DNA of 64,000 nt from positions 1 to 64,000 of the forward strand of contig JADZAS010000036.1 of the NCBI GenBank assembly GCA_020852515.1. The letters are read 5' to 3'. Of the stretch, positions 29,905-51,908 are shown piece by piece. Source of the DNA: Phycisphaerales bacterium (GTDB lineage Bacteria; Planctomycetota; Phycisphaerae; Phycisphaerales; UBA5793). Position 1 is the first letter of the stretch. Every line of letters begins with the position of its first letter. Position numbers and translations under genes: made by a program. The notes beneath the pieces were generated by a model, which saw only the letters and a list, made by a program, of their open reading frames with translations, ran no database searches and had not been told where the DNA came from.

Positions 29905-32900
29905 TCACCGGCGTAGGTCATGGCGACGGAAGCCGTCCCCCAAGAAATCGAACTTGCGCTCGAAGAGCGTGGCGAGCTTCTCGCTTGCAGTCGCAAACAG
30001 GATCTGTCTACTGCCCGCCAAGGCAAGCTCGCGCAAGTAGTCCAGAAACGACAACGCATTTAGATCATCGACATGGGCGATCGGGTCGTCAATCAGAACC
30101 ACAGGCGGGGCCGCCCGTAACTGTGCATTCTGAGCCAAGAAAATCGACAGGGCAAAAGCGGCTCGCTGACCGGTGCTGATCTCGCTGAGTGTGGCCTCGG
30201 TTGCGCGGTTCTTTCTGACAAGCGTGGAAAGGCAACCGCCAAGCCCTGAGAACTCTGCGGGGGCGTGGATACGGCCGAAGATCATCTCGATCTGCGCGCG
30301 GTTCCGCTTGAGCGCCGCCTCCATGGCACCGGTCAGGGAGTGGTTCGTCTGAATGGCCTCAAGTGCCTTGCCAGCTTTGACTAATCGCTCAATGCGGGGG
30401 CTTACTTCTGCCAGCTGCTTGGCGAGTTGTTCCCTCCGCTTTGTGGACTCCGCGAAGATGGTCTTCGCCTGCTGCTCCCTGCCAAGCACGGCTTGGAACT
30501 CCGCTGCGACTTTGCGGATCGAATCGGTCTCAACTACCAGCTCGGAGAGCGGTCTGTCTCCCGGCCACGGAAACGACTTGAGCAGGGTGCCGAGCTTCTC
30601 CCGAAGGCTGTCTGCTACTGCGCGGCGCTCCTTGAGCTGGGATACCGCTACTTTCAGGCTCTCAGTACTGGACTCCCCCAATCCCAGACCTGCCTCAAGC
30701 GATCGCTGAAGTGCCGCGGCCTTGGAACGCTCCTCCTCCAGCGTCCTGGCAGCGCTCGCCTGGTCGCGCTCGATCGTACCTCGGACTTGGTCGATGGTCT
30801 CCTTCGTCCAATCGGCCAGAGCGTGACCGGAATCGCGCAAGCCCACGAGGAGTTGATCCAACATGGCAACGGGTAGGCCTTGGGACTCCAGAGCTTGAAG
30901 TTCTTTATTCAATGCCTCAAGTCGTCGCTGTGCCTCGACAAGCGCCTGCCGTGCTCCTTCGATCTTCGACAGTGTGGCCACGACCGTGACCGCTCCATCG
31001 ATCGCTGCCCGCTCGCAGAACTTCCCGAGCCACGTTGACGCATTCTCAACGATCACGGCTTGGCGCAGCGCCTCTTCGCGCTGCCGCAACTGCGACAGCA
31101 ACACTTGTCCGCGAGCTTCGACGTGCTGATCCACGCCAAGCTGCATGTGCTTGGCCAACTCCCCGGGGGCGAACTGAGTGTGGCACAGGGGACACTCCTC
31201 GGATAGGGGACTGACCTGGAGGATCTGGGCTGCGATGTCGCGAAGCTGTTGCGCCAGGCTGACTGAGTGATCGCGGAGCCGTGTGAAGCATGCGTGCTCT
31301 TCCTTCGCGGCGTTCACTGCCTTTTGTGCAGCCGTGCGCGCCGCCTTGGCAGCCGCGGCGAGTGCGACAACAGTCGCTTCAGGCTGGCTCTTCGCGAGCA
31401 CGGTCAGCAACGTGTCATCGGAGCCGGCTAGCAATCCGCCGTGGGATGTCACGGCGTTCTGCAGCTTGCGAAGTTCCTCTGCGCGATCGGGCAGGCCGGC
31501 GTCCACCACGCGCGCCGCGTCAGCAATCAGCGTCAAGGCGCTCTGGAAACGGCGGACCTGATCTACGAGTCGCCTTTCCTTCTTTCGATGCTCCTCGAGG
31601 CGCTCTATGTCTGCTTCCGCCCTTTCGCATGCCTTCTTGGCGTCGCTGCTGTACTTCTTCAGTCCATCGGCTGACGTAGGAGACGCCGCCCACTCAAACG
31701 CGGCGGCCTGCATCGCCAATGACTCCAGTTCCGGAAGCGATTCGAGGAGAAGTTCGGGAAACTCTGCTTTGTCCTTGGTCGGCGCCGGCCACTTGAGACG
31801 GCGCACCATGTCCTCGACCCGCGTGAGTATTGAGTCTGACTCCTGTTTGACACTACCCGCTTCCTTGAGACGGGCGTCAAGCGTGACGATCTCGCTTTTG
31901 ATTTGAGTTTCAAGAGGCCGCAGTTCGCGGAGCTTGGCTGTTGTGGCGTCATGCAGTCGCTCGATCTCACGCCACGTCTTGGACGCCTCGGACCCCACGA
32001 GCAGATTGGAAAGATCGTCGTCAAGCCGTGCGGTCGATTCCGCGAGGCCGACTGCTGCGTCGGTATCGAGAAAGTTGAACAGTGCAAAACTCAGGTATAG
32101 GTTGTTTGTCTTCACCTCCGGCTGCCCGTACCAGTGCAGATTCCTTTGCCTGAACGTCTTCTGAGGTCGGGTATGCGTCGCAGTCTCCTTGCTGCCATCG
32201 GCGAACACCGCCGCGATGTCGTACGCGCCGTCCGCGTGCGCATTTCGTTTGTTCCTTCCGCAATAGAGGAGCTCGATGGCCTCAAGGAGCGATGTCTTTC
32301 CTGATCCGTTGGCACCGACAATGAGATTCACTGTGCCGAACGCAAAGTCGCGTTGCAGAGGAAACTCTCGAAACTTCGCAAGCTGAAGCGATTTCAGAAA
32401 CGGCAGCGGGCTGAGGGATGGCTGCGGCGTTGGCACTGTAGGCGGGGGCGAAGGTGTTGCGGACGCCGTTTCAATCAGTGCCAATCGACTGGGAAGCGGC
32501 TTATCGCTCAGTACCGCCTTATCAAGACCGACCTCCGTCAGCTTTGCGAGCCACACCGAGTGAATGCTGGCTTCTGGCAGTGCGTCCGGCGATGCCGATG
32601 GAGGAGCCCCGAACGCAGCATCCAGCTCACTCTCAGTAATGACGAATTTGCGAGCATAGGTGCGATCCAGCTCTATCCACTGTTTGGCTTCTTCCATCGC
32701 ACTGGTGCGCGCCTGCTCGGCACTGACGACAAAATACAGATAGTTACTCCACTGCAGGCTTTTCTTGCCCTCAAAGTACCGCTTTCCTATCACCCGATCC
32801 TGATAGTCTGTGAGCGCCTCACGCGTAGTAGGCAGATGCGAACCGACATCGACGTAGTACAGAGCGAACGCATGGCCGTTCGATTTGCGAGTGAATCGGA

Positions 32901-32979
32901 TTACGAATTCCTCGACCTGTTCAGCGTCCGGGAAGCGGAGCGCAAGTCGTTCGCGCAGTTGGCCAATGTTGAGCATCAT
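29905..32979 (-). CDS. Rad50/SMC-like ATPase
   Basis: A 1024-residue ABC-type ATPase. Residues 1-190 form an extra N-terminal domain (EFVIRFTRKSNGHAFALYYV) ending in a Pro-rich linker. The Walker A VGANGSGKTSLLEAIE (about 230) begins the SMC head; two long coiled coils follow, separated by a CPLC motif (SEECPLCHTQF) that looks like the zinc hook of Rad50. The signature LSEISTGQRAAFALSIFLA and Walker B VVLIDDPIAHVDD are near the C-terminus. All ATPase motifs are intact. Such proteins sense or tether DNA and often act with a nuclease or effector. The ATGA overlap with the nitrilase-fold gene implies a functional pair. Confidence 0.82.
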   Translation of the reverse strand: MMLNIGQLRERLALRFPDAEQVEEFVIRFTRKSNGHAFALYYVDVGSHLPTTREALTDYQDRVIGKRYFEGKKSLQWSNYLYFVVSAEQARTSAMEEAKQWIELDRTYARKFVITESELDAAFGAPPSASPDALPEASIHSVWLAKLTEVGLDKAVLSDKPLPSRLALIETASATPSPPPTVPTPQPSLSPLPFLKSLQLAKFREFPLQRDFAFGTVNLIVGANGSGKTSLLEAIELLYCGRNKRNAHADGAYDIAAVFADGSKETATHTRPQKTFRQRNLHWYGQPEVKTNNLYLSFALFNFLDTDAAVGLAESTARLDDDLSNLLVGSEASKTWREIERLHDATTAKLRELRPLETQIKSEIVTLDARLKEAGSVKQESDSILTRVEDMVRRLKWPAPTKDKAEFPELLLESLPELESLAMQAAAFEWAASPTSADGLKKYSSDAKKACERAEADIERLEEHRKKERRLVDQVRRFQSALTLIADAARVVDAGLPDRAEELRKLQNAVTSHGGLLAGSDDTLLTVLAKSQPEATVVALAAAAKAARTAAQKAVNAAKEEHACFTRLRDHSVSLAQQLRDIAAQILQVSPLSEECPLCHTQFAPGELAKHMQLGVDQHVEARGQVLLSQLRQREEALRQAVIVENASTWLGKFCERAAIDGAVTVVATLSKIEGARQALVEAQRRLEALNKELQALESQGLPVAMLDQLLVGLRDSGHALADWTKETIDQVRGTIERDQASAARTLEEERSKAAALQRSLEAGLGLGESSTESLKVAVSQLKERRAVADSLREKLGTLLKSFPWPGDRPLSELVVETDSIRKVAAEFQAVLGREQQAKTIFAESTKRREQLAKQLAEVSPRIERLVKAGKALEAIQTNHSLTGAMEAALKRNRAQIEMIFGRIHAPAEFSGLGGCLSTLVRKNRATEATLSEISTGQRAAFALSIFLAQNAQLRAAPPVVLIDDPIAHVDDLNALSFLDYLRELALAGSRQILFATASEKLATLFERKFDFLGDGFRRHDLRR

Positions 32980-34718
32980 GATGCCCTCGCGATGTCAAAT
33001 TCTGACCCAGATCGAGGCTCGTCGATCTTCAGGTAGCGAGTGCGGTCGAATAGCTGGATCGCTCCGTTGCCCTGGCGATACCAGAGGTGAAGCCTTTGCC
33101 GAGCCTCGATCCCCGCATCGGGATTGGGCGAAGCCCTCTGAAGGTACTCGGCCATCCGTTTCCCGACGGCCTCGATGTCAGTGTCGCTTGCGTCTTCACC
33201 CATATAGATGGCCGTAGCTCGGCGACCGGCTGACGATACGACGTTCTGGTGTGGAGCCCATTCGAGGCGGAAGCCTCCTTTGAGATCGTCAAGTGCGGGC
33301 GGCAGGTGGGCGTGAGTGCTCAGAATGTCCCAGAGCCGCCCGCAGCGCCTGAGTCGTCCAATGCGAAACAGCCGTGCGTCGGGATCGCTGTCCTGACAGA
33401 AGGTCATGCGGCGGATGACTTCCGACGCCTGGATACCGCAAGAATCGAGCTTTTGGAGGTGATGCCAATTGGCGTCAGTGCCGATACTTCCCGCGCACAG
33501 GGCCAGAACACGCTCGGCGTTGAACGGATTGACGCCTGCCAGTTCCGCAATGTCGTGTTGCGCATTACCACATTCCGCAACAACTGTCGCGAAGCCGTCT
33601 GTTGGACCGGGATGCGGCACCCAGGCAGAGGCGTGGGCATCCCAAGTCTTCATTGCAGTGAGCTGGGGTCCGCGGCGCCGAGAGAGTGAAGCCGGGACGC
33701 CGCGATGGGCAACTTTACTCGCCGTGATCAGGTAGACTCCCGGTTCGTAGTTGAAGAAGAGTGCGTGGGACCGCATCGCCTGGAACCACGTATAGTACAG
33801 GCCGTTGCGGTGGTTGAAAGATAGAGTCGCGTCCTGATCGTCAAATGTGTCAGGACAGAGGTACCATGCGGAACCGGAAATGTTGTTCCAACATTGCGCG
33901 GCGCCGCCGCATCCCTCGCGCACGTCCTTCGCCCAGTTGAGACAGAGCACCTCGGTAGCGCCCCCGCCGAAGCGAAAGAGGCGGTCGCGGTACTGCCGGT
34001 ACTGATATTGACGTGGCTGTCGGTTGAGCTGGATGTGAAGTACAAGGGCTCGGTCATAGACCTGTTCAGCCTCGGGGTCCAGGAACTCAAACGCATCCGA
34101 GCAAATCAGAGAAAGCAGGCGTGGGTCTCCGGAATCGCCGCCGAACTGGTAAACGCGGGTTCCCCGCTGCATTCCATTGACCTCGAAGTGGCCGTGGTCC
34201 CCCATCGGACAGGTCTTGAACTGGACAAGCAGCACCAGCCTGCTTGCACCGTTGGGCTCCGTTGGAGGTGCAACAAACACGTATGCGAGTGGATCGACAA
34301 ACCGGTGGTCGTCCGGCAGAAGTGTCTCAAAGAGAACAGTGGCATGAGGGGCAAGATCCCGCTTCAAAGCCTCAAGCTCGGTGTATCTGATGCTCTCGCA
34401 ACCAAGTGCCCAAAGCGAGCCGTCCGCAGGGGTGTTGCCCGCCCGGATTGCCTCTGACAGGGTCTCCCACGGCAGTGAGTACTCAGGAGTGACCGCGAGT
34501 GCGGCGTTGTTCGTGCGAGCCTCATTCAAGAAGCCCCGGAACTGGTTGAGGGCAAGTGCACGGTCCTGGTGGCGCACACCGGCGGCGCTGGCCTCGATGT
34601 GTCCTTGGGGTTGCAGGAGAAGCACGGAGTAGTTGTCAACGTTGGGAACGAGCGCGCGGAGTACCGGCGGGCCAAGCCCGGCGGGAGTGAGCAGATCGTT
34701 GACCGACTGGATCTCCAC
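32976..34718 (-). CDS. Nitrilase-fold (carbon-nitrogen hydrolase) protein
   Basis: A 580-residue protein. The N-terminal 300 residues carry a nitrilase-like triad: Glu in AVTPEYSLPWE, Lys in LVQFKTCPMGDHG, Cys in LSLICSDAFEFLD. The C-terminal 280 residues are an unassigned domain (RRCGRLWDILSTHAHLPPAL). Nitrilases hydrolyse nitriles or amides, but nitrilase domains are also known fused to reverse transcriptases in defence (DRT type 1). The GTG start (34718) has AGGAGG 13 nt upstream, a little far. It lies 45 bp behind DUF2130 and overlaps the ATPase start by 4 bp, so it is the middle gene of a three-gene operon. Confidence 0.72.
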   Translation of the reverse strand: MEIQSVNDLLTPAGLGPPVLRALVPNVDNYSVLLLQPQGHIEASAAGVRHQDRALALNQFRGFLNEARTNNAALAVTPEYSLPWETLSEAIRAGNTPADGSLWALGCESIRYTELEALKRDLAPHATVLFETLLPDDHRFVDPLAYVFVAPPTEPNGASRLVLLVQFKTCPMGDHGHFEVNGMQRGTRVYQFGGDSGDPRLLSLICSDAFEFLDPEAEQVYDRALVLHIQLNRQPRQYQYRQYRDRLFRFGGGATEVLCLNWAKDVREGCGGAAQCWNNISGSAWYLCPDTFDDQDATLSFNHRNGLYYTWFQAMRSHALFFNYEPGVYLITASKVAHRGVPASLSRRRGPQLTAMKTWDAHASAWVPHPGPTDGFATVVAECGNAQHDIAELAGVNPFNAERVLALCAGSIGTDANWHHLQKLDSCGIQASEVIRRMTFCQDSDPDARLFRIGRLRRCGRLWDILSTHAHLPPALDDLKGGFRLEWAPHQNVVSSAGRRATAIYMGEDASDTDIEAVGKRMAEYLQRASPNPDAGIEARQRLHLWYRQGNGAIQLFDRTRYLKIDEPRSGSEFDIARAS

Positions 34719-36207: not shown

Positions 36208-36774
36208 TCAGCAATAACCACGGCTATGTATTGTGTCAGCGCTAGCGAGTAGAAGTTTGAGCCGTGGCCGCCTGTTTCGCGGGGAAACGAAAGGTGAGCC
36301 ATACGTCGCGATGTCCCGCGTGTAATTGCAGTTGGGAAACGTCGAGCAGCCCAAGAACTTGGAGCCTGCACGAACGCCGCGCTTGGCGGTGCGCGGTATC
36401 AACACAGCGCCACATTGCGGGCAGATCGGCGCGGATGCACGTGCCGATTCAGAATCCTCTTCGATTCTCTCTGTCTCAATTCGCCCTGATGCTTGGACAT
36501 CGCTGATCATCTGCACGAGTTCGCGGCCATCGATCAGGCGGATCGGATTCTTCGCGGCAGAGTCGGTCGCCTCGGCCGTGAACTGACCCGAGGTCACGAC
36601 GATGCCTGACTGAGCGCCTTCGCTCGTCACAACGCCGAGCGATTCGCGCACGATCTGGACGCCCACCTGCCGCCGCTTCCAGTGCTTGCACTGCACGAGC
36701 GTCACGGCGCCGGCTTTGCCGAGGCGGATGTCGATGCCGTCGTCCGAGCCATCCCGTCCGCTGTGGCGTCGGGA
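36208..36774 (-). pseudogene. N-terminally truncated Mrr-type nuclease with topoisomerase-type zinc finger
   Basis: The open frame begins after a TGA at 36775-36777, with no good start. It enters directly at the catalytic core GRDGSDDGIDIRL and LVQCKHWKRRQVG (the D...QxK of Mrr-like enzymes), continues GIVVTSGQFTAEA, and ends with CPQCGAVLIPRT / FLGCSTFPNCNYTR, a topoisomerase C4 zinc finger. The N-terminal specificity region is gone and no ribosome binding site precedes the only candidate start, a GTG at 36705, which would lose the catalytic Asp. Most likely a degraded restriction gene. Confidence 0.7.
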
Positions 36775-37202: not shown

Positions 37203-37262
37203 TTGAACACAGTCAGCGGCAGCGTGGTATACTCATGTGGTCGCCTTTCGCTCGCGAGAGCG
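37203..37262 (+). promoter_or_regulatory. Promoter and 5'-UTR hairpin of the AIPR operon
   Basis: TTGAAC (37203-37208) and TATACT (37228-37233), 19 bp apart, resemble a sigma-70 promoter. In the predicted leader, CGCTC-GCGA-GAGCG (37249-37262) forms a hairpin with a GNRA tetraloop. The first gene starts at 37325, leaving a leader of about 85 nt. Confidence 0.5.
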
Positions 37263-37324
37263 GGGCCGCCGAAGCAAAGTCGGGTCGCGGCATGCCGCCG
37301 CCCGCGAACATTCAGGAGATTCAC

Positions 37325-38578
37325 ATGGCTAGCGCCACAGCGCATCGCCCCGTGCCCGTCGAGTTCTTGGTGCATGTTGACGACTTTCGAACGCACAGAA
37401 TTCCGGGCCTCCCCAGTTCGAAGGTCGGTTCCTGCTTCATCCGTGCGGATGAGCTTGTCAAGCACTTGGACCTAGACGAGTGGCTTGCGGTCAATCCTCG
37501 CGTGCCCACGCGAAGCGCCAAAGACGTACTCACCGGTCACGTCGTTCGCGGCATCCAAGACACCCTGCGAGAGGCACCCTCAGACTTCGCTCTGAAGAAC
37601 CAGGGTCTGTATCTGCTCGTCGCATCCGTCGGAGAATACGAGCGGCAGCGAGATGGTGGCCGTCTGCGCTTCACCATGTCCGATCCTCTCGCCCATGGGC
37701 TATGCAACGGCGGACACACCTACGCAGCGGTTCGCGAGTACTCAGAGCGTGCGGAAAACCCACAGACGCTTGAAGAAGTATGGGTTCGCCTCCATCTCTT
37801 CGAGGGTATTGACCCCGACAAGGTGCCGGCGATGGCCGAAGGGCTCAACCGGAGCCGGCAGGTCGATGACCCAAGTCTGATGAACCTCGAGGGTCAGTTC
37901 GATGCTATCCGGAAGGCGCTACAGGGGAAGCCCGGTCACAAAGAGATCGCCTACAGGCAGGGCGATCCGGGCAACTACTACATCACGGAGATCATCCGCG
38001 CGATCATGTTTTTCAACTGCCAGCGGTTCGATAGCCGCAAGCATCCCAGCACGCTCTATCGCCAGCAGAAACAGATGCTCGACGCGTTCCGCGATGACGC
38101 CAACCAGCGGCCCTCGCCGATCGCCCTTGTCGTTCCGCACATCCACGAGATTCTGGTACTGATGGACTCGATTGCCCGGGCGACGCCAGCGGCGTGCAAA
38201 CGGCTCAAGCCCGCGTTCGAGCTCGGCCGGATGAAAGGCGAGCGGGCAGGCGTTCGAGCGGGTTCAGCCGCGCACAAGGACACGCCGTTGTTCTTCCTCG
38301 GCACGAAGATGGACCACAAGATCCACACCGGATGGCTGCTGGTCATGCTGGCGGCCTTCAGAGCCAACGTCCGCTGGGATTTGACGCGCGGCGTATTCGA
38401 ATGGAAGACGCCCTCGACGGAGCTGCTCCCGAAGGTTATCGACGGCCTGGTTGCGATCTGTGTTCAGGAGTATCGGGACAACAAGTCCAAACCCGACGAG
38501 ATGGCGCGCAACCCAGCCGTGTACGACCGCTGCTACAAGGAAATCGAGCTGGAGCTCTTACGTTCCGGCATCCGCTGA
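37325..38578 (+). CDS. AIPR-family protein
   Basis: A 417-residue protein of the AIPR (abortive infection phage resistance) family, judged from FALKNQGLYLLVASV, LCNGGHTYAAVREYS, the following VRLHLFEGID and the NRSRQVDDPSLMN segment. Family members occur in several defence systems; the biochemical role is not settled. A start at 37325 is chosen for AGGAG 7 nt upstream; a longer frame from 37235 has no site. First gene of a plus-strand operon that continues with the helicase 112 bp downstream. Confidence 0.78.
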   Translation: MASATAHRPVPVEFLVHVDDFRTHRIPGLPSSKVGSCFIRADELVKHLDLDEWLAVNPRVPTRSAKDVLTGHVVRGIQDTLREAPSDFALKNQGLYLLVASVGEYERQRDGGRLRFTMSDPLAHGLCNGGHTYAAVREYSERAENPQTLEEVWVRLHLFEGIDPDKVPAMAEGLNRSRQVDDPSLMNLEGQFDAIRKALQGKPGHKEIAYRQGDPGNYYITEIIRAIMFFNCQRFDSRKHPSTLYRQQKQMLDAFRDDANQRPSPIALVVPHIHEILVLMDSIARATPAACKRLKPAFELGRMKGERAGVRAGSAAHKDTPLFFLGTKMDHKIHTGWLLVMLAAFRANVRWDLTRGVFEWKTPSTELLPKVIDGLVAICVQEYRDNKSKPDEMARNPAVYDRCYKEIELELLRSGIR

Positions 38579-42064: not shown

Positions 42065-43897
42065 GTGCAAAGCGTCCGGGACCATCTCGCTCGCCACTCG
42101 TTCCGCAACCTCTTCATCGAGGAGTTGGGATGGGACATTGCATCCGGCGACGCGGTAGCAATCGCAGGTTCTACGTCGTTTGCGCTCCGACGGATTGCAC
42201 ACAAGCGAGGGGTTCAGGCGTTCACTTGCGAACTGACGCCCCAACAGTTGACCGATCGGAAGCTCCTCCGCACCATCGAATCTCAGCTGTCTCAGCAGGC
42301 GGTGGAGCATGTCGCCATCTACTTCTGTGAACACCTCCGACAACAGTGCTGGCAATGGGCCGCCGTCGGCCCCTCGGGCAAGCGACTGCGACATCGCGAG
42401 CACCCGTTTACCAGTCGGGTTCCGTCTGACAAAGTCGTCGCGAGGATTCAGGCACTCGCGATTGAATTTGAAGCAGAGGACGCAACGACGCTGTCGGACG
42501 TGTCTGCCCGGCTCAGAACCTCTTTCGATAATGATCCGGAGTTCTCCAGCTTCTTTCGAGGTGCCCGTTGGCGGGTGCTCAGCGACGCGCTGCACCGGCG
42601 CTGGCTGCAGACTCAGACAGATGCGGACCTGAACGCCTTTCTCACGATCCACCTGCCATTGCTCCCCTGGGCGGCAAAGAAGTTCGCTCCGCGACGGATG
42701 GAACAGGAGGACGCCGCCGCAGTCGCGTTCTTCGCGCTGCGCAGGGCTGCCCAGCAGTTCGACGCTGACCACGGTGCGCAGTTTTCAACATACGCCACAA
42801 AGGCGATGATGCAATGGATCGGACGACTCGCACCTGTCTACACCGATTTGATCAAGTGTCGGAGTCATCGGTGCCGGATATTCCGGCAATGCGAGCGGCA
42901 AGCCGAACGGCTTGCCGTCACCTCGGGAGAGTGGCGTGGTCGCCGCCTGCTCGAGTTGCTGACGATTCGTAGGACGACTCAGCCCGCCAGCGTGTTCCGC
43001 GCTGTGCGGCACATCGGCTCGTTCGACGACCGGTCAGCGCCGTTCCGACGCATGCTGAATGAGCGGCCAGACGACGCCCCCACTCCTCTTGAGCGAATGC
43101 TGCACGAAGAGCGAGTCGCGCGAATCCCTGCCGTCCTGGCAGGTCTGCCCGCCCGCGATGCCGCCATCGTGCAACAGCGGTTCGGACTAGGTGGAAGCGG
43201 CGTGAAGGCAACTCTTGAGCAGATTGGAACCGCGCATCGCCTGACCAAGGAGGGTGTGCGCCTGATACTGCTGCGGGTCATTGACGACTTGCGCGAGCTG
43301 TTCGACGAGCCCACTGAGAGCGAAATCACGAATCGTGCCGCGTGGACGCCAATGTCACTGGCAGGCCGCGATCTACTCGCGCCACTGCTTGCGGTTCCTG
43401 GTGCGGACGTCACCCCGATCCCGAGAGAACGGGCGATGCCCATCGCTTCTCGGCCCGCCACATACACGCTCACCCTTCAAGCCGGTCCGGTACCCAAGCT
43501 CTTTGACGGCATGCTCGCGCCGCACCTGGCCAACGGTACTGAGCATCCAGCTGTCTTGGGCGTCACGGACAATGGTCGATCGATTGCGTCGGCCGACAGT
43601 GCTGCGAACCCCGGAGACAGCGACATCGACCGAGTTCAGACCGCGCTTCAAGCCGCCGCTGCAGTTGGCGGTATGCTGGTCACAGAACTCATCACGACAC
43701 TGGGGATCAACGGTGGACGCGTCAGAGCGGCCGTGCATGGCCTCGCCAAGTCCGGCGAAGCAGAGCGCGGCCCAGACCTACGTTGGCGGCTTGTCACGCG
43801 AAAGGGCGCCTCGATGGCCCCACCCTGCACACCGCCATTAACTCGATCCAACCATTCCACCACGCCTCTGCCATCGCTATTCGACGCGCACTCCTGA
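42065..43897 (+). CDS. Sigma-70-like protein with a methyltransferase-associated N-terminal domain
   Basis: 610 residues with four visible parts. Residues 1-155 (FRNLFIEELGWDI, LRRIAHKRGVQAFTCEL, EAEDATTLSDVSARL) align by eye with residues 1-165 of the adjacent methyltransferase. Residues 188-255 match sigma-70 region 2 (LNAFLTIHLPLLPWAAKKF, AAQQFDADHGAQFSTYATKA). Residues 343-412 match region 4 (AVLAGLPARDAAIVQQRFGL, LEQIGTAHRLTKEGVRLIL). Residues 530-582 look like a winged helix (LVTELITTLGINGGRVRAAV). Thus a sigma-factor core sits in a defence operon between helicase and methyltransferase genes. It could direct transcription of this operon, or use the fold to bind promoter-like DNA as a specificity subunit. 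Confidence 0.78.
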   Translation: MQSVRDHLARHSFRNLFIEELGWDIASGDAVAIAGSTSFALRRIAHKRGVQAFTCELTPQQLTDRKLLRTIESQLSQQAVEHVAIYFCEHLRQQCWQWAAVGPSGKRLRHREHPFTSRVPSDKVVARIQALAIEFEAEDATTLSDVSARLRTSFDNDPEFSSFFRGARWRVLSDALHRRWLQTQTDADLNAFLTIHLPLLPWAAKKFAPRRMEQEDAAAVAFFALRRAAQQFDADHGAQFSTYATKAMMQWIGRLAPVYTDLIKCRSHRCRIFRQCERQAERLAVTSGEWRGRRLLELLTIRRTTQPASVFRAVRHIGSFDDRSAPFRRMLNERPDDAPTPLERMLHEERVARIPAVLAGLPARDAAIVQQRFGLGGSGVKATLEQIGTAHRLTKEGVRLILLRVIDDLRELFDEPTESEITNRAAWTPMSLAGRDLLAPLLAVPGADVTPIPRERAMPIASRPATYTLTLQAGPVPKLFDGMLAPHLANGTEHPAVLGVTDNGRSIASADSAANPGDSDIDRVQTALQAAAAVGGMLVTELITTLGINGGRVRAAVHGLAKSGEAERGPDLRWRLVTRKGASMAPPCTPPLTRSNHSTTPLPSLFDAHS

Positions 43898-47274: not shown

Positions 47275-47304
47275 ATCAGAACAACCCACAAGACGTGTCC
47301 ATGC

Positions 47305-47855
47305 ATGGCCTTTGAGTCTCTTCTGGAAGAGATCGACGCCGAGGTCGATTTGGTGAACAAGGTCGGCTCGCGGTCCTTCGAGGGACGCGACTATGACCGG
47401 GCCAAGGAAGCCCTCGCCCCGGGCCGGCATCCTGATCGCATTCCGCGACAAGGTGGCCGCGCTGCGTGCGGAGTGGCAGACCATCGCCGCTGTCGCGGAG
47501 CAGGAGGAGGACGAGGAGACCAAGACCGCCCGGCGAAACCTTGGCAGGCTCCGCAACGGCCTCCGAACCCCGGAGGCCGCGTATCGGGAGCCCATCCTAT
47601 GGGTGCTGCAGAGCATGGGGGGCTCGGGCAAGGCCGCTGACGTGCTGGAGAAGGTCGGCCAAATCATGAAGCCCAAGCTCCAATCGGTTGAATTCGAGCC
47701 ACTCGCGTCGGGGCCGGAGAACCCGCGCTGGCGGAACGCCGCAATGGGCCAGGAACACGATGGTGAAGGAGGGCCTGTTGAAATCGGATTCCCCTCGCGG
47801 AATTTGGGAGGTCACCCCGATGGGCGCAAGCACAGTGTCGACCAGTCCCCCTTGA
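47305..47855 (+). pseudogene. Winged-helix (Mrr_N-like) protein with two frameshifts
   Basis: Three frames together encode one plausible protein. Frame 1 from 47305: MAFESLLEEIDAEV ... DYDRAKEAL. After a CCCC run near 47422 the frame shifts to RAGILIAFRDKVAALR ... PENPRWRNAAM. Near 47746 it shifts back to ARNTMVKEGLLKSDSPRGIW, ending at 47855. The C-terminal half is the winged helix seen at the N-terminus of Mrr-type proteins. One base gained and one lost would explain both breaks. It is either a recent pseudogene or an assembly error; its place 30 bp after the methyltransferase implies it was part of the operon. Confidence 0.68.
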
Positions 47856-47872
47856 AGGCATAGGAGTCCGGA

Positions 47873-49421: not shown

Positions 49422-49928
49422 CTAACGAAGCTCCTTGAATAGCAGCATGGCATCAGTCCCACTTCCCCAGTACCCGCCCAGCCTTGCCCCAATCCGAAAG
49501 CCCAAGTGCTGAAAAAACCCCACCGTCTCGCGAAACCCAGCTGCGCTGAGTGTGGACCCGTTTGGAACGGTGTCCGGGTCGGTGGTCTTCAGCGATACCA
49601 CTTGCTGGGTGCAAACAGTGTCCATCGCAGCAACGACAAGCTGTCGGCCAATCCCTCGCCGCGTGCTCTGCGGATCAACAGCCATCCACAGCAGTTCCAT
49701 CTCGAATGCATGTGCAACCCACACCAGGAATCCTACGAGTCTGCCGTCTTCCTCAAACACGCGGCTCGGAAGCGCAAGAAAGTCTGCCTTAACCAGGGGA
49801 TACGCATCTCGAAGATAGTGGGTTGGCCATGCCGCGAGGATTCGCAGTACGTCGCCAACATCGCCTTGGTTCCCGGGCCTGATCACCGCTCTGACACCTC
49901 GATGCCGATATGGGTGCGATTTGGACAC
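49422..49928 (-). CDS. GNAT-family N-acetyltransferase
   Basis: 168 residues. The acetyl-CoA motif A reads LLWMAVDPQSTRRGIGRQLV, with R-R-G-I-G-R in the usual position, then motif B AGFRETVGFFQHLGF. Substrate unknown; as the downstream partner of a cyclodipeptide synthase candidate it may tailor the peptide product or confer self-protection. The ATG at 49928 overlaps the synthase by 46 bp; a GTG at 49886, overlapping its stop as GTGA, is an equally good start and begins exactly at the first strand of the fold. Confidence 0.8.
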   Translation of the reverse strand: MSKSHPYRHRGVRAVIRPGNQGDVGDVLRILAAWPTHYLRDAYPLVKADFLALPSRVFEEDGRLVGFLVWVAHAFEMELLWMAVDPQSTRRGIGRQLVVAAMDTVCTQQVVSLKTTDPDTVPNGSTLSAAGFRETVGFFQHLGFRIGARLGGYWGSGTDAMLLFKELR

Positions 49929-50596
49929 GCGACAGGAATCCCGGGAAATGCGCCCTCTGAGATCAGCTGCATGAGTTCGAGATCGCGCCCGGGATACACC
50001 TCAATCATGTACCCGCTCTGGTACAACCACATGAACATGGCCAACTCTTCAACCATGTATTGCAACCACAGGCGGCGGCGTGGGGCATCATCCAAGTCAG
50101 ACCGCTTGCCACGCCGCTCAAGGTAATCCCGTGATGCCTCCTCAACCGCCATTGCGAATCGTGGGGTCACCGTGATGAATGCCGAGAGGTCGTGCCGTAG
50201 CCGCTTGTACTCGATCGTCTGCAACGTCTCTTCCCAGTTGAGCAGGCGGACGCGTGCGTTGGCCCCTAACCGAGCAACAATGTCATCTAGACGTCGGCGA
50301 AAACGAGGTAGGCCAGCGCGGGCTTCGCCCTCGGCCACCACCTCCGGCAGCGCTTTCTCCGCCATGATGTTCCACCGATCCGGAAAGCTCCCCTCGACGA
50401 TGAGCACGTCATCCGATCGTGCGCAAACCCAGTTCACGATCTGCTCCAGGCGAGCGCGGTTGACCGACGATGTGGAGGGACTCAGTCCAATCCAGCAATT
50501 GAACCTCTCGCCATTCAGGAATCGTGAGACGAGACGCCCGTGAGTCTCCGACTGAATCACTTGAACCTGGGGAGATGGTGACGCCGTGTCAATCAT
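49883..50596 (-). CDS. tRNA-dependent cyclodipeptide synthase, XYP-type candidate
   Basis: 237 residues. Cyclodipeptide synthases use two aminoacyl-tRNAs to make a cyclic dipeptide. Matches to the family: FNCWIGLSPSTS with the catalytic Ser after Gly-Leu; a long central helix region with basic residues (FRRRLDDIVARLG); QYMVEELAMF with Tyr and Glu four apart, as in Y178/E182 of AlbC; and MIEVYPGRDL, where Tyr-Pro corresponds to the Y202/P203 pair that defines the XYP subfamily. Position 40 is Thr rather than Asn, again XYP-like. The start at 50596 overlaps the previous stop by 8 bp. Product not predictable. Confidence 0.72.
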   Translation of the reverse strand: MIDTASPSPQVQVIQSETHGRLVSRFLNGERFNCWIGLSPSTSSVNRARLEQIVNWVCARSDDVLIVEGSFPDRWNIMAEKALPEVVAEGEARAGLPRFRRRLDDIVARLGANARVRLLNWEETLQTIEYKRLRHDLSAFITVTPRFAMAVEEASRDYLERRGKRSDLDDAPRRRLWLQYMVEELAMFMWLYQSGYMIEVYPGRDLELMQLISEGAFPGIPVACPNRTHIGIEVSER

Positions 50597-51908
50597 CGGA
50601 CGCGTTGTCCTCTTCATCGGTGCCCGCGCCCGATTTGTTGACTCCTCGAACTCCTTCGCGACTCGCTCGAGCCCCGTCCATCAGCACACACTCAAGGAGT
50701 GTCGTCTGCAGTGCCTTCGCCATAGGGTCATTCTGCCGTGGCGTTTCCACGGCGGACTCGAATGCTGCGGTAGCAGTCACTCGGTTATACAGACGATAAC
50801 CCGATTGCTCTCCAATGAAGAACGCGTTTGTACCTTTTGCCACACCGTACAAGACCTCACGAAGCCACTCGTCCGCACGGGCAATCGCCTTCTGCAGCTT
50901 GTTACGCGCCAGGCCAGCGCTGCGACCATTTGAACTCTCCAGTGCGCTGTCACCGAAGATCGCTGCATACAGCGCTTTCAGCGGCACCGGCTGGTCCCGA
51001 CCGGCCTTGCGGCTGGCCCACGACGACATCAACATGAATAGCACGGCCCGCCTGTCTGCGAACTCGCCGGGCGAGCCGTCCAGCAACTGATAGCTCTTGC
51101 CGTTCATACCCAAGAGCTGCGCACCCGGACGAGCGCTCAGTTCGAGCAACTGCCTTGGAGGAGCGCCGTCGCGCACCGCCGAACACGTCATCTTGAATGC
51201 TGCGGGTGAATCGAGAAGGAACCGGTAGCTTGCCGCGCCAGCCGCGTCGCGGTGCCTTGCGAGCGACTCCACGCTCGATTCCGTATCCAGGTCCCATACG
51301 GTCGGCCCTGGCAATGAGTTGACGACTATTGTGATGTGATCGCAAGCGAGGTGGCCACGCGCCAGGCTGAACTGCGCCGCGGCCCGCAGCAGATCGGACA
51401 AGAACCACCCTGCCGCGACAGCTCGCTGCCATGACTCACAGGCGGGCGATCCCGCGCCCTGATGCTGCGGGATGTAGTAGAGCATCGTGTGCTCAGGCTT
51501 GAGCCAGGATCGCCACAGATGGATTGGCTTGGGCCAGGTCGTCGGGGGACCGAAGAGCCTGATTAGGGGTTGCTCGACCTCAGCACGCTCCAAGCGAACC
51601 GTGTTGAGATCGAGCGATGCGGGCTGAGCGAGATCATCGGGATGCAGAAGCGCGTACGAAAAGCTATTAAGCGGGCGCTTCACGTATTGATGATGGTGCG
51701 TACCTTCGCGTTCTAACTCCAATGAGGCCTCAACGCCTCCGATGAACTCCGCGAAGAGCATATGGAAGTCAATACCCAACGAGTCCAATCGGAACTGCAG
51801 ACCGAGGATTCCACTCGGAAGAGAGAGGGTTCCGCCGTAGCGGCGCAGTGCCGGACGAATCAACGGCGCGAGCGCCTCGGCAAGTTGCTGGAGCGTGCGT
51901 TCGTCCAT
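50589..51908 (-). CDS. Unknown protein of the cyclodipeptide cluster
   Basis: 439 residues, starting MDERTLQQLAEALAPLIRPA. It has a helical N-terminus, a middle with FSLARGHLACDHITIVVNSL, and a C-terminal part with a DNA-binding look (LYAAIFGDSALESSNGRSAG, then KLQKAIARADEWLREVL). The extreme C-terminus is acidic and disordered. No family or catalytic motif is recognised. It overlaps the cyclodipeptide synthase by 8 bp and lies 64 bp behind the transporter, so it should serve the same pathway: a regulator, a tailoring enzyme of unknown type, or a tRNA-handling partner. Confidence 0.6.
   Translation of the reverse strand: MDERTLQQLAEALAPLIRPALRRYGGTLSLPSGILGLQFRLDSLGIDFHMLFAEFIGGVEASLELEREGTHHHQYVKRPLNSFSYALLHPDDLAQPASLDLNTVRLERAEVEQPLIRLFGPPTTWPKPIHLWRSWLKPEHTMLYYIPQHQGAGSPACESWQRAVAAGWFLSDLLRAAAQFSLARGHLACDHITIVVNSLPGPTVWDLDTESSVESLARHRDAAGAASYRFLLDSPAAFKMTCSAVRDGAPPRQLLELSARPGAQLLGMNGKSYQLLDGSPGEFADRRAVLFMLMSSWASRKAGRDQPVPLKALYAAIFGDSALESSNGRSAGLARNKLQKAIARADEWLREVLYGVAKGTNAFFIGEQSGYRLYNRVTATAAFESAVETPRQNDPMAKALQTTLLECVLMDGARASREGVRGVNKSGAGTDEEDNASDD

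Follow-up and report, generated by a model that had tools for sequence, protein, structure and literature searches.

We describe a protein, here called SIG, which is encoded in a 64,000-nucleotide stretch of DNA from a Phycisphaerales bacterium (contig JADZAS010000036.1; the whole stretch is referred to below as the window) and which, on sequence grounds, combines domains in a new, rare and conserved way within a restriction-like module of known kind. Sigma factors are otherwise known as parts of the transcription apparatus; here a sigma core rides on the N-terminal domain (N-domain) of a DNA methyltransferase, beside a restriction-like helicase. SIG would be either a new means of target-DNA choice for a restriction system or a transcription switch dedicated to defence, and an answer as to which would also bear on the MzaA protein of the MZA system.

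The domains of SIG follow one another in the order N-domain, sigma-70 region 2, sigma-70 region 4, linker and winged helix (Table 1). The assignment of residues 188-255 and 343-412 to sigma-70 regions 2 and 4, made in an earlier note on this DNA, was borne out for both regions by profiles and for region 2 also by the predicted fold. Pfam places Sigma70_r2 at residues 196-247 (E=4.2e-6) and Sigma70_r4 at residues 357-411 (E=4.7e-6), both above the curated cut-offs, the NCBIfam sigma70-ECF superfamily model scores 54.3 bits and exceeds its cut-off of 42.9, and a profile built from the sigma parts of seven members of the family finds RpoS and RpoD/SigA chains in the PDB at E=2.5e-45 to 1e-37. The AlphaFold2 model of SIG (mean pLDDT 74.9, pTM 0.44) is confident in the N-domain, the sigma core and the winged helix, the last with pLDDT 84-92 across most residues, and in region 2 it fits solved sigma structures to an rmsd of 1.4-1.7 A over 92-93 residues (Z 12-13). 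The long linker (residues ~427-517) is poorly predicted and unstructured in this model. As superposition on whole sigma chains gives a large rmsd, the placement of the domains relative to one another is modelled unreliably.

The earlier note had also aligned the N-terminal part of SIG with that of the methyltransferase encoded next to it, and this likeness proved to be, on the scores obtained, far above chance: residues 2-197 of SIG match the methyltransferase N-terminus in BLASTP (31% over 200 residues, E=1e-19), and the PADLOC methyltransferase profile PDLC03628 matches SIG residues 3-161 (E=7.7e-17). Among 40 aligned N-domains of both protein kinds the residues L23, F24, E26, G29, W30, E89, W104, W106 and F171, numbered by the methyltransferase fragment, are invariant. 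When the methyltransferase N-domain is modelled alone it is predicted confidently (mean pLDDT 92.5, pTM 0.82) to adopt an alpha/beta fold composed of helices, three strands, a helix and three further strands. This order of elements would fit a PD-(D/E)XK core; however, we rejected its classification as a clear nuclease of that fold because structural comparison gave weak hits of mixed kinds. Among nucleases 9y1l fits best (Z 5.0, 4.2 A over 108 residues), but unrelated folds tie with it, and a Foldseek search with the N-domain returned no match below E=0.1. In a tree of eight sigma and 37 methyltransferase N-domains, in which the bootstrap was not fully settled and L030 forms a long branch, the eight sigma N-domains are split off from the rest by a branch with support 100/97, recovered in 99% of bootstrap trees. 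On this topology the sigma N-domain clade has one origin, and we rejected a recent duplication of the front end of the adjoining methyltransferase as the source of the shared domain, given the separate sigma clade (100/97).

Table 1. Features of SIG and of the operon that contains it, in window coordinates
Feature	Coordinates	Strand	Evidence
Conserved leader ahead of operon, starting with extended -10-like GTGGTATACT	37224..37324	+	Four-locus alignment
AIPR-family protein, first gene of the operon	37325..38578	+	Pfam AIPR E=6.5e-14
HEL: HKD (PLD-like nuclease) + SNF2 helicase, 1125 aa	38685..42062	+	Pfam PLDc_2, SNF2-rel_dom, Helicase_C
SIG ORF, 610 aa, GTG start	42065..43897	+	ORF and translation, Pfam/NCBIfam/PADLOC, AlphaFold2, dN/dS
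SIG N-domain, residues 1-165, common to methyltransferase	42065..42559	+	BLASTP, PADLOC, tree, model and fold search
SIG sigma-70 region 2, residues ~187-260	42623..42844	+	Pfam, superposition, residue table
SIG sigma-70 region 4, residues ~343-415, helix-turn-helix	43091..43309	+	Pfam, residue table
SIG C-terminal winged-helix domain, residues ~518-580	43616..43804	+	AlphaFold2 model
MT: Eco57I-type N6-adenine methyltransferase, 1118 aa	43918..47274	+	Pfam Eco57I E=3.6e-26
Decayed copy of small Mrr_N-domain gene	47277..47865	+	Pairwise alignment: several indels, broken frames

The operon runs in the order AIPR protein, HKD(PLD)-SNF2 helicase (HEL), SIG and N6-adenine methyltransferase (MT), with SIG beginning 2 bases past the stop codon of HEL; the ATG at 37325 was inferred to be the AIPR start from the conserved leader and a preceding GGAG. 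HEL matches the PADLOC model C3a139 (HKD+Snf2; E=2.7e-42) and MT the model PDLC03628 (1126.9 bits), so that both components of the HKD-SNF2/Eco57I-type methyltransferase module are present in one operon and in the order of the base loci. MT consists of the N-domain (~residues 1-165) and, at its C-terminal end, a specificity half which varies among loci in an identity profile. Across four loci the leader of ~100 bases hardly differs (mean column identity 89%), unlike the sequence farther upstream; inspection by eye revealed no conserved -35 before GTGGTATACT. The leader was also considered as a structured RNA, which was rejected since it folds no better than shuffled sequences (z 0.43, -0.88, -0.19). 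The Mrr_N-domain gene that is decayed in the window stands intact after the methyltransferase in L109, L029 and L110 (Mrr_N E=1e-14 in L109).

Elsewhere in the window, the reverse strand encodes at 29905-34718 a 1024-aa SMC-like ATPase with a match to Lamassu LmuB (E=1e-33), which overlaps by 4 bases a 580-aa protein without a family match, and together they probably form a further defence unit of this island. At 36208-36705 on the same strand lies a fragment of an Mrr-type nuclease that bears a topoisomerase-type zinc ribbon; it matches positions 50-115 of the 115 in the Mrr catalytic domain, that is the second half only, and may therefore be truncated. A cyclodipeptide-synthase-like protein (E=8.8e-13) is encoded at 49883-50617, again on the reverse strand, and adjoins a GNAT acetyltransferase.

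A genome scan yielded 80 loci, of which 75 carry methyltransferase N-domains from many phyla, mostly adjoining the same type of helicase and lacking a sigma protein. From these neighborhoods, helicase and methyltransferase appear as a two-gene restriction-like module of many phyla, normally without sigma. A sigma protein is present in the other five loci (L029, L030, L031, L032 and L033), all in Planctomycetota, with the gene of L033 broken into two frames. Genome searches added one locus each from genomes G094 (L109) and G043 (L110), a further hit in G085 being the L031 locus, and bring the sigma-fused genes to eight with the window included, found in Planctomycetota only. The fusion is rare: the N-domain occurs in 12 of 392 sampled Planctomycetota genomes and, judging by open-frame lengths, only that of the window looks like a sigma fusion. 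Profile searches with the sigma core returned mostly ordinary sigma factors and are uninformative on fusion frequency. Phage records gave no match to the SIG protein, and viral contigs gave only ordinary sigma-like proteins, plus two loci with a relative of the N-domain. A relative also lies on the Synechocystis plasmid pSYSX; its identification with slr6095 was withdrawn, as published accounts do not settle which gene it is, and a search for slr6050 found nothing, so that no methylation motif is claimed for MT.

The order AIPR-helicase-sigma-methyltransferase is common to the window, L109, L110 and L029, so that the gene pair of sigma and methyltransferase does recur across genomes, the association that the earlier note had named as a check, always behind the helicase in these four loci. 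Helicase and sigma are separated by 2 bases in the window, L109 and L029 and overlap slightly in L031/L112, where the helicase is followed by sigma and then by the contig end. The helicase ORF of G043 (L110:8762-12135) ends early and the remaining match continues in another frame, owing to a frameshift or a sequencing error. In L030, sigma is preceded by the C-terminal portion of another type IIG-like methyltransferase and by an Mrr_N protein, and the gene ahead of sigma in L032 reads as a putative HNH nuclease; neither locus shows a helicase, and both are near contig ends. With the sigma loci counted in, 43 of 76 helicase/N-domain pairs lie no more than 40 bases apart, and in base loci the methyltransferase often occupies the slot directly after the helicase, where sigma sits when both are present.

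Two related genomes, G133 (L111:9653-14673) and G112 (L248:6323-8949), encode a second type of sigma protein, which differs at its N-terminus and again comes after a similar HKD-SNF2 helicase; between the two genomes the sigma proteins are 58% and the helicase ends 77% identical. The proposal that the L111 N-terminus is the same N-domain was rejected, as profile comparison gave no match; the C-terminal stretch of the L111 protein, by inspection, resembles the winged-helix part of SIG. No methyltransferase of the MT kind was seen in the 19.9 kb of L111, and L248 is a short contig. Because this second type pairs with a similar helicase and no methyltransferase was seen, the helicase is as steady a neighbor of sigma as the methyltransferase is. 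The earlier choice of the methyltransferase as the partner thus holds in that it adjoins sigma in four loci, but has to be widened to the helicase, which sigma follows directly in two lineages.

Codon comparisons indicate that SIG is under purifying selection, with dN/dS of 0.172 against G094, 0.149 against L029 and 0.125 against G043; in the same comparison the helicase gives 0.030-0.034 and the methyltransferase 0.09-0.19. The first 650 residues of the methyltransferase are mostly >75% identical in L029 and G043 and its C-terminal half (from ~residue 650) is 16-62% identical, as would result, on our reading of the alignments, from a change of specificity region. In L029 the specificity half of the methyltransferase falls to 26-58%, yet sigma region 2 retains 92-96% identity there, and between close loci region 4, the C-terminus and the linker vary more than region 2. 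As region 2 was not replaced along with the specificity half (L029, L110), a sigma part matched to the methylated sequence is argued against.

We compared nine family rows, one of them the broken copy, with 57 sampled ordinary sigma factors at positions numbered after E. coli sigma-70, whose roles in DNA or polymerase contact are those which we assume from general sigma-factor knowledge. In region 2, F427 and Y430 are kept in 9/9 rows and Q437 in 8/9. In region 4, E585 and R588, which ordinary sigma factors keep, are present in 8/8, and R586 and Q589 in 7/8, the exception being the window copy with G and L. The polymerase-facing residues E407, G408 and N409 of region 2.2, found in 57/57 ordinary sigma factors, are found in 0/9, 1/9 and 0/9 family rows. 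Within this segment the window copy has the changes Q406A, E407V, G408A, N409F and M413R, and its clade (window, L029, L109 and L110) is the most deviant, with R413, A411, A434 and K or R at 433; distal members retain D403 and Q406, and L030-L032 and L111 resemble more ordinary sigma cores. Loss of E407, G408 and N409 was at one point taken as proof of lost RNA polymerase binding, which we withdrew because FliA carries A407 and G409, and WhiG and several viral sigma factors likewise lack E407 and N409.

As a tentative first choice, we propose that SIG might be an accessory, sigma-derived DNA-targeting subunit of an HKD-SNF2 helicase/N6-methyltransferase restriction-like system. In such a system the N-domain would be the docking module by which either protein, methyltransferase or sigma, attaches to the helicase-nuclease, probably on the helicase; sigma regions 2 and 4 together with the winged helix would bind promoter-like or partly opened DNA, and the helicase-nuclease would be brought to such DNA besides the sites read by the methyltransferase, with methylation protecting the host. 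We lean to this proposal because sigma sits straight after the helicase in the slot where base loci often have the methyltransferase, because the second sigma type pairs with a similar helicase, because the sigma N-domains form one clade, with DNA-contact residues kept and, in the clade of the window, the polymerase-facing segment and W433/W434 altered, and because region 2 is conserved in L029 while the methyltransferase specificity half diverged. It is weakened by the variation of FliA, WhiG and viral sigma factors in the same polymerase-facing segment, by the more ordinary cores of L030-L032 and L111, with L030 and L032 lacking a visible helicase near contig ends, and by the G and L of the window copy at two region-4 positions where each of the other seven members scored has R and Q. 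Nearly as likely is that SIG is a true alternative sigma factor for defence genes. It would then associate with core RNA polymerase to transcribe the defence operon or other defence genes close by, and its N-domain would tether it to HEL or MT and so provide a sensor or a brake, in an anti-sigma-like arrangement or as a controller resembling the C proteins of restriction-modification systems. A full sigma 2-4 core with RpoS/RpoD affinity, the kept DNA-contact residues, the retention of D403 and Q406 in distal members, the precedent of MZA (in which the MzaA model is RpoD-like over most of its length) and the strongly conserved GTGGTATACT and leader before the operon in four loci are all as expected of such a factor. 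However, the window clade departs from ordinary sigma factors in the polymerase-facing segment and at W433/W434, the housekeeping sigma could use the GTGGTATACT site, before which no conserved -35 was seen, and SIG lies inside the operon, tightly coupled to the helicase and between the genes to be controlled.

Sigma or RNA polymerase is the target of many phages, and a sigma core joined to a system-specific domain could serve as a decoy or guard which mimics the host sigma and senses phage proteins that seize sigma or RNA polymerase, whereupon the N-domain would release or activate the helicase-nuclease. The faster evolution of sigma (dN/dS 0.125-0.17) relative to the helicase (0.03) would agree with such a role; however, we consider it improbable, given that, when close loci are compared, no part of the sigma core is better conserved than region 2 and it is the linker and C-terminus that vary. 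We regard as very improbable that SIG is a passenger of the operon, a fusion gene that is dispensable and plays no role in defence. Its rarity (one of the 392 sampled Planctomycetota genomes has a sigma N-domain), the broken copy in L033 and a base module that lacks sigma would be consistent with dispensability, but not so the dN/dS of 0.125-0.17, nor the deeply branching clade spread over several planctomycete lineages with gene order kept in four loci.

Among known systems, the base module recorded in PADLOC (C3a139/PDLC03628) has the same helicase and methyltransferase in the same order and differs in lacking the sigma protein. The operon also resembles type-2 BREX-related systems, in which an HKD-helicase fusion effector is combined with an N6-methyltransferase (PMC12839542); however, those carry DUF499 and DUF3780 proteins, which were not found among the scanned neighbors of SIG in a Pfam scan that covered part of the window's ORFs. 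Class 1 DISARM shares the combination of an SNF2 helicase and an adenine methyltransferase, but the DrmD and DrmMI matches are weak (DrmD 136.6 bits against a cut-off of 610; DrmMI E=4.2e-18), and the neighbors scanned include no DrmA or DrmB gene. DNA binding by a sigma-like helix-turn-helix within a defence protein has been described for BrxL, whose SIGMA-HTH (PMC12839542) is a single tri-helical domain in an MCM-like helicase, whereas SIG has a core of regions 2 and 4.

A parallel in composition is the MZA anti-phage system, a defence operon with an AIPR protein and a sigma-70-like component, MzaA, which has been called a sigma factor (PMC9523054) and is so called in the name of its NCBIfam model, a model that resembles RpoD over most of its length. 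The earlier statement that there was no precedent therefore does not extend to a sigma component as such; it does stand for the fusion of a sigma core with a methyltransferase domain, which was not found in the literature searched, mostly papers available without subscription. Against the MzaA model, the sigma part of SIG scores E=5.5e-15 (55.2 bits, short of the cut-off of 800), but MzaA, which is RpoD-like and ~700 aa long, lacks the methyltransferase N-domain found in SIG. Of the MZA partners, the MutL-like, Z1 and DUF proteins are absent among the neighbors scanned and only AIPR is present; the MzaE match is weak (17.9 bits against a cut-off of 1050), and no scanned neighbor reaches the cut-off of any MZA component. 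A sigma-70 gene also directly precedes DrmA-like and DrmB-like genes on plasmid pOT10-1 of Roseomonas sp. OT10 (L246:8875-14754), in a DISARM-like operon with a DNA cytosine methyltransferase and with vsr and HNH genes close by. It is conceivable, if on the doubtful side, that sigma-70 DNA-recognition modules were detached from RNA polymerase and reused, by way of a docking domain borrowed from a methyltransferase, as the target-recognition subunit of a restriction helicase-nuclease, with sigma-like proteins recurring in otherwise unrelated defence operons (the present module, MZA and the Roseomonas DrmA-DrmB locus). The presence of SIG in such a gene cluster suggests that sigma factors can be recruited by defence systems, either for selecting the DNA to be targeted or for regulating the systems' own genes.
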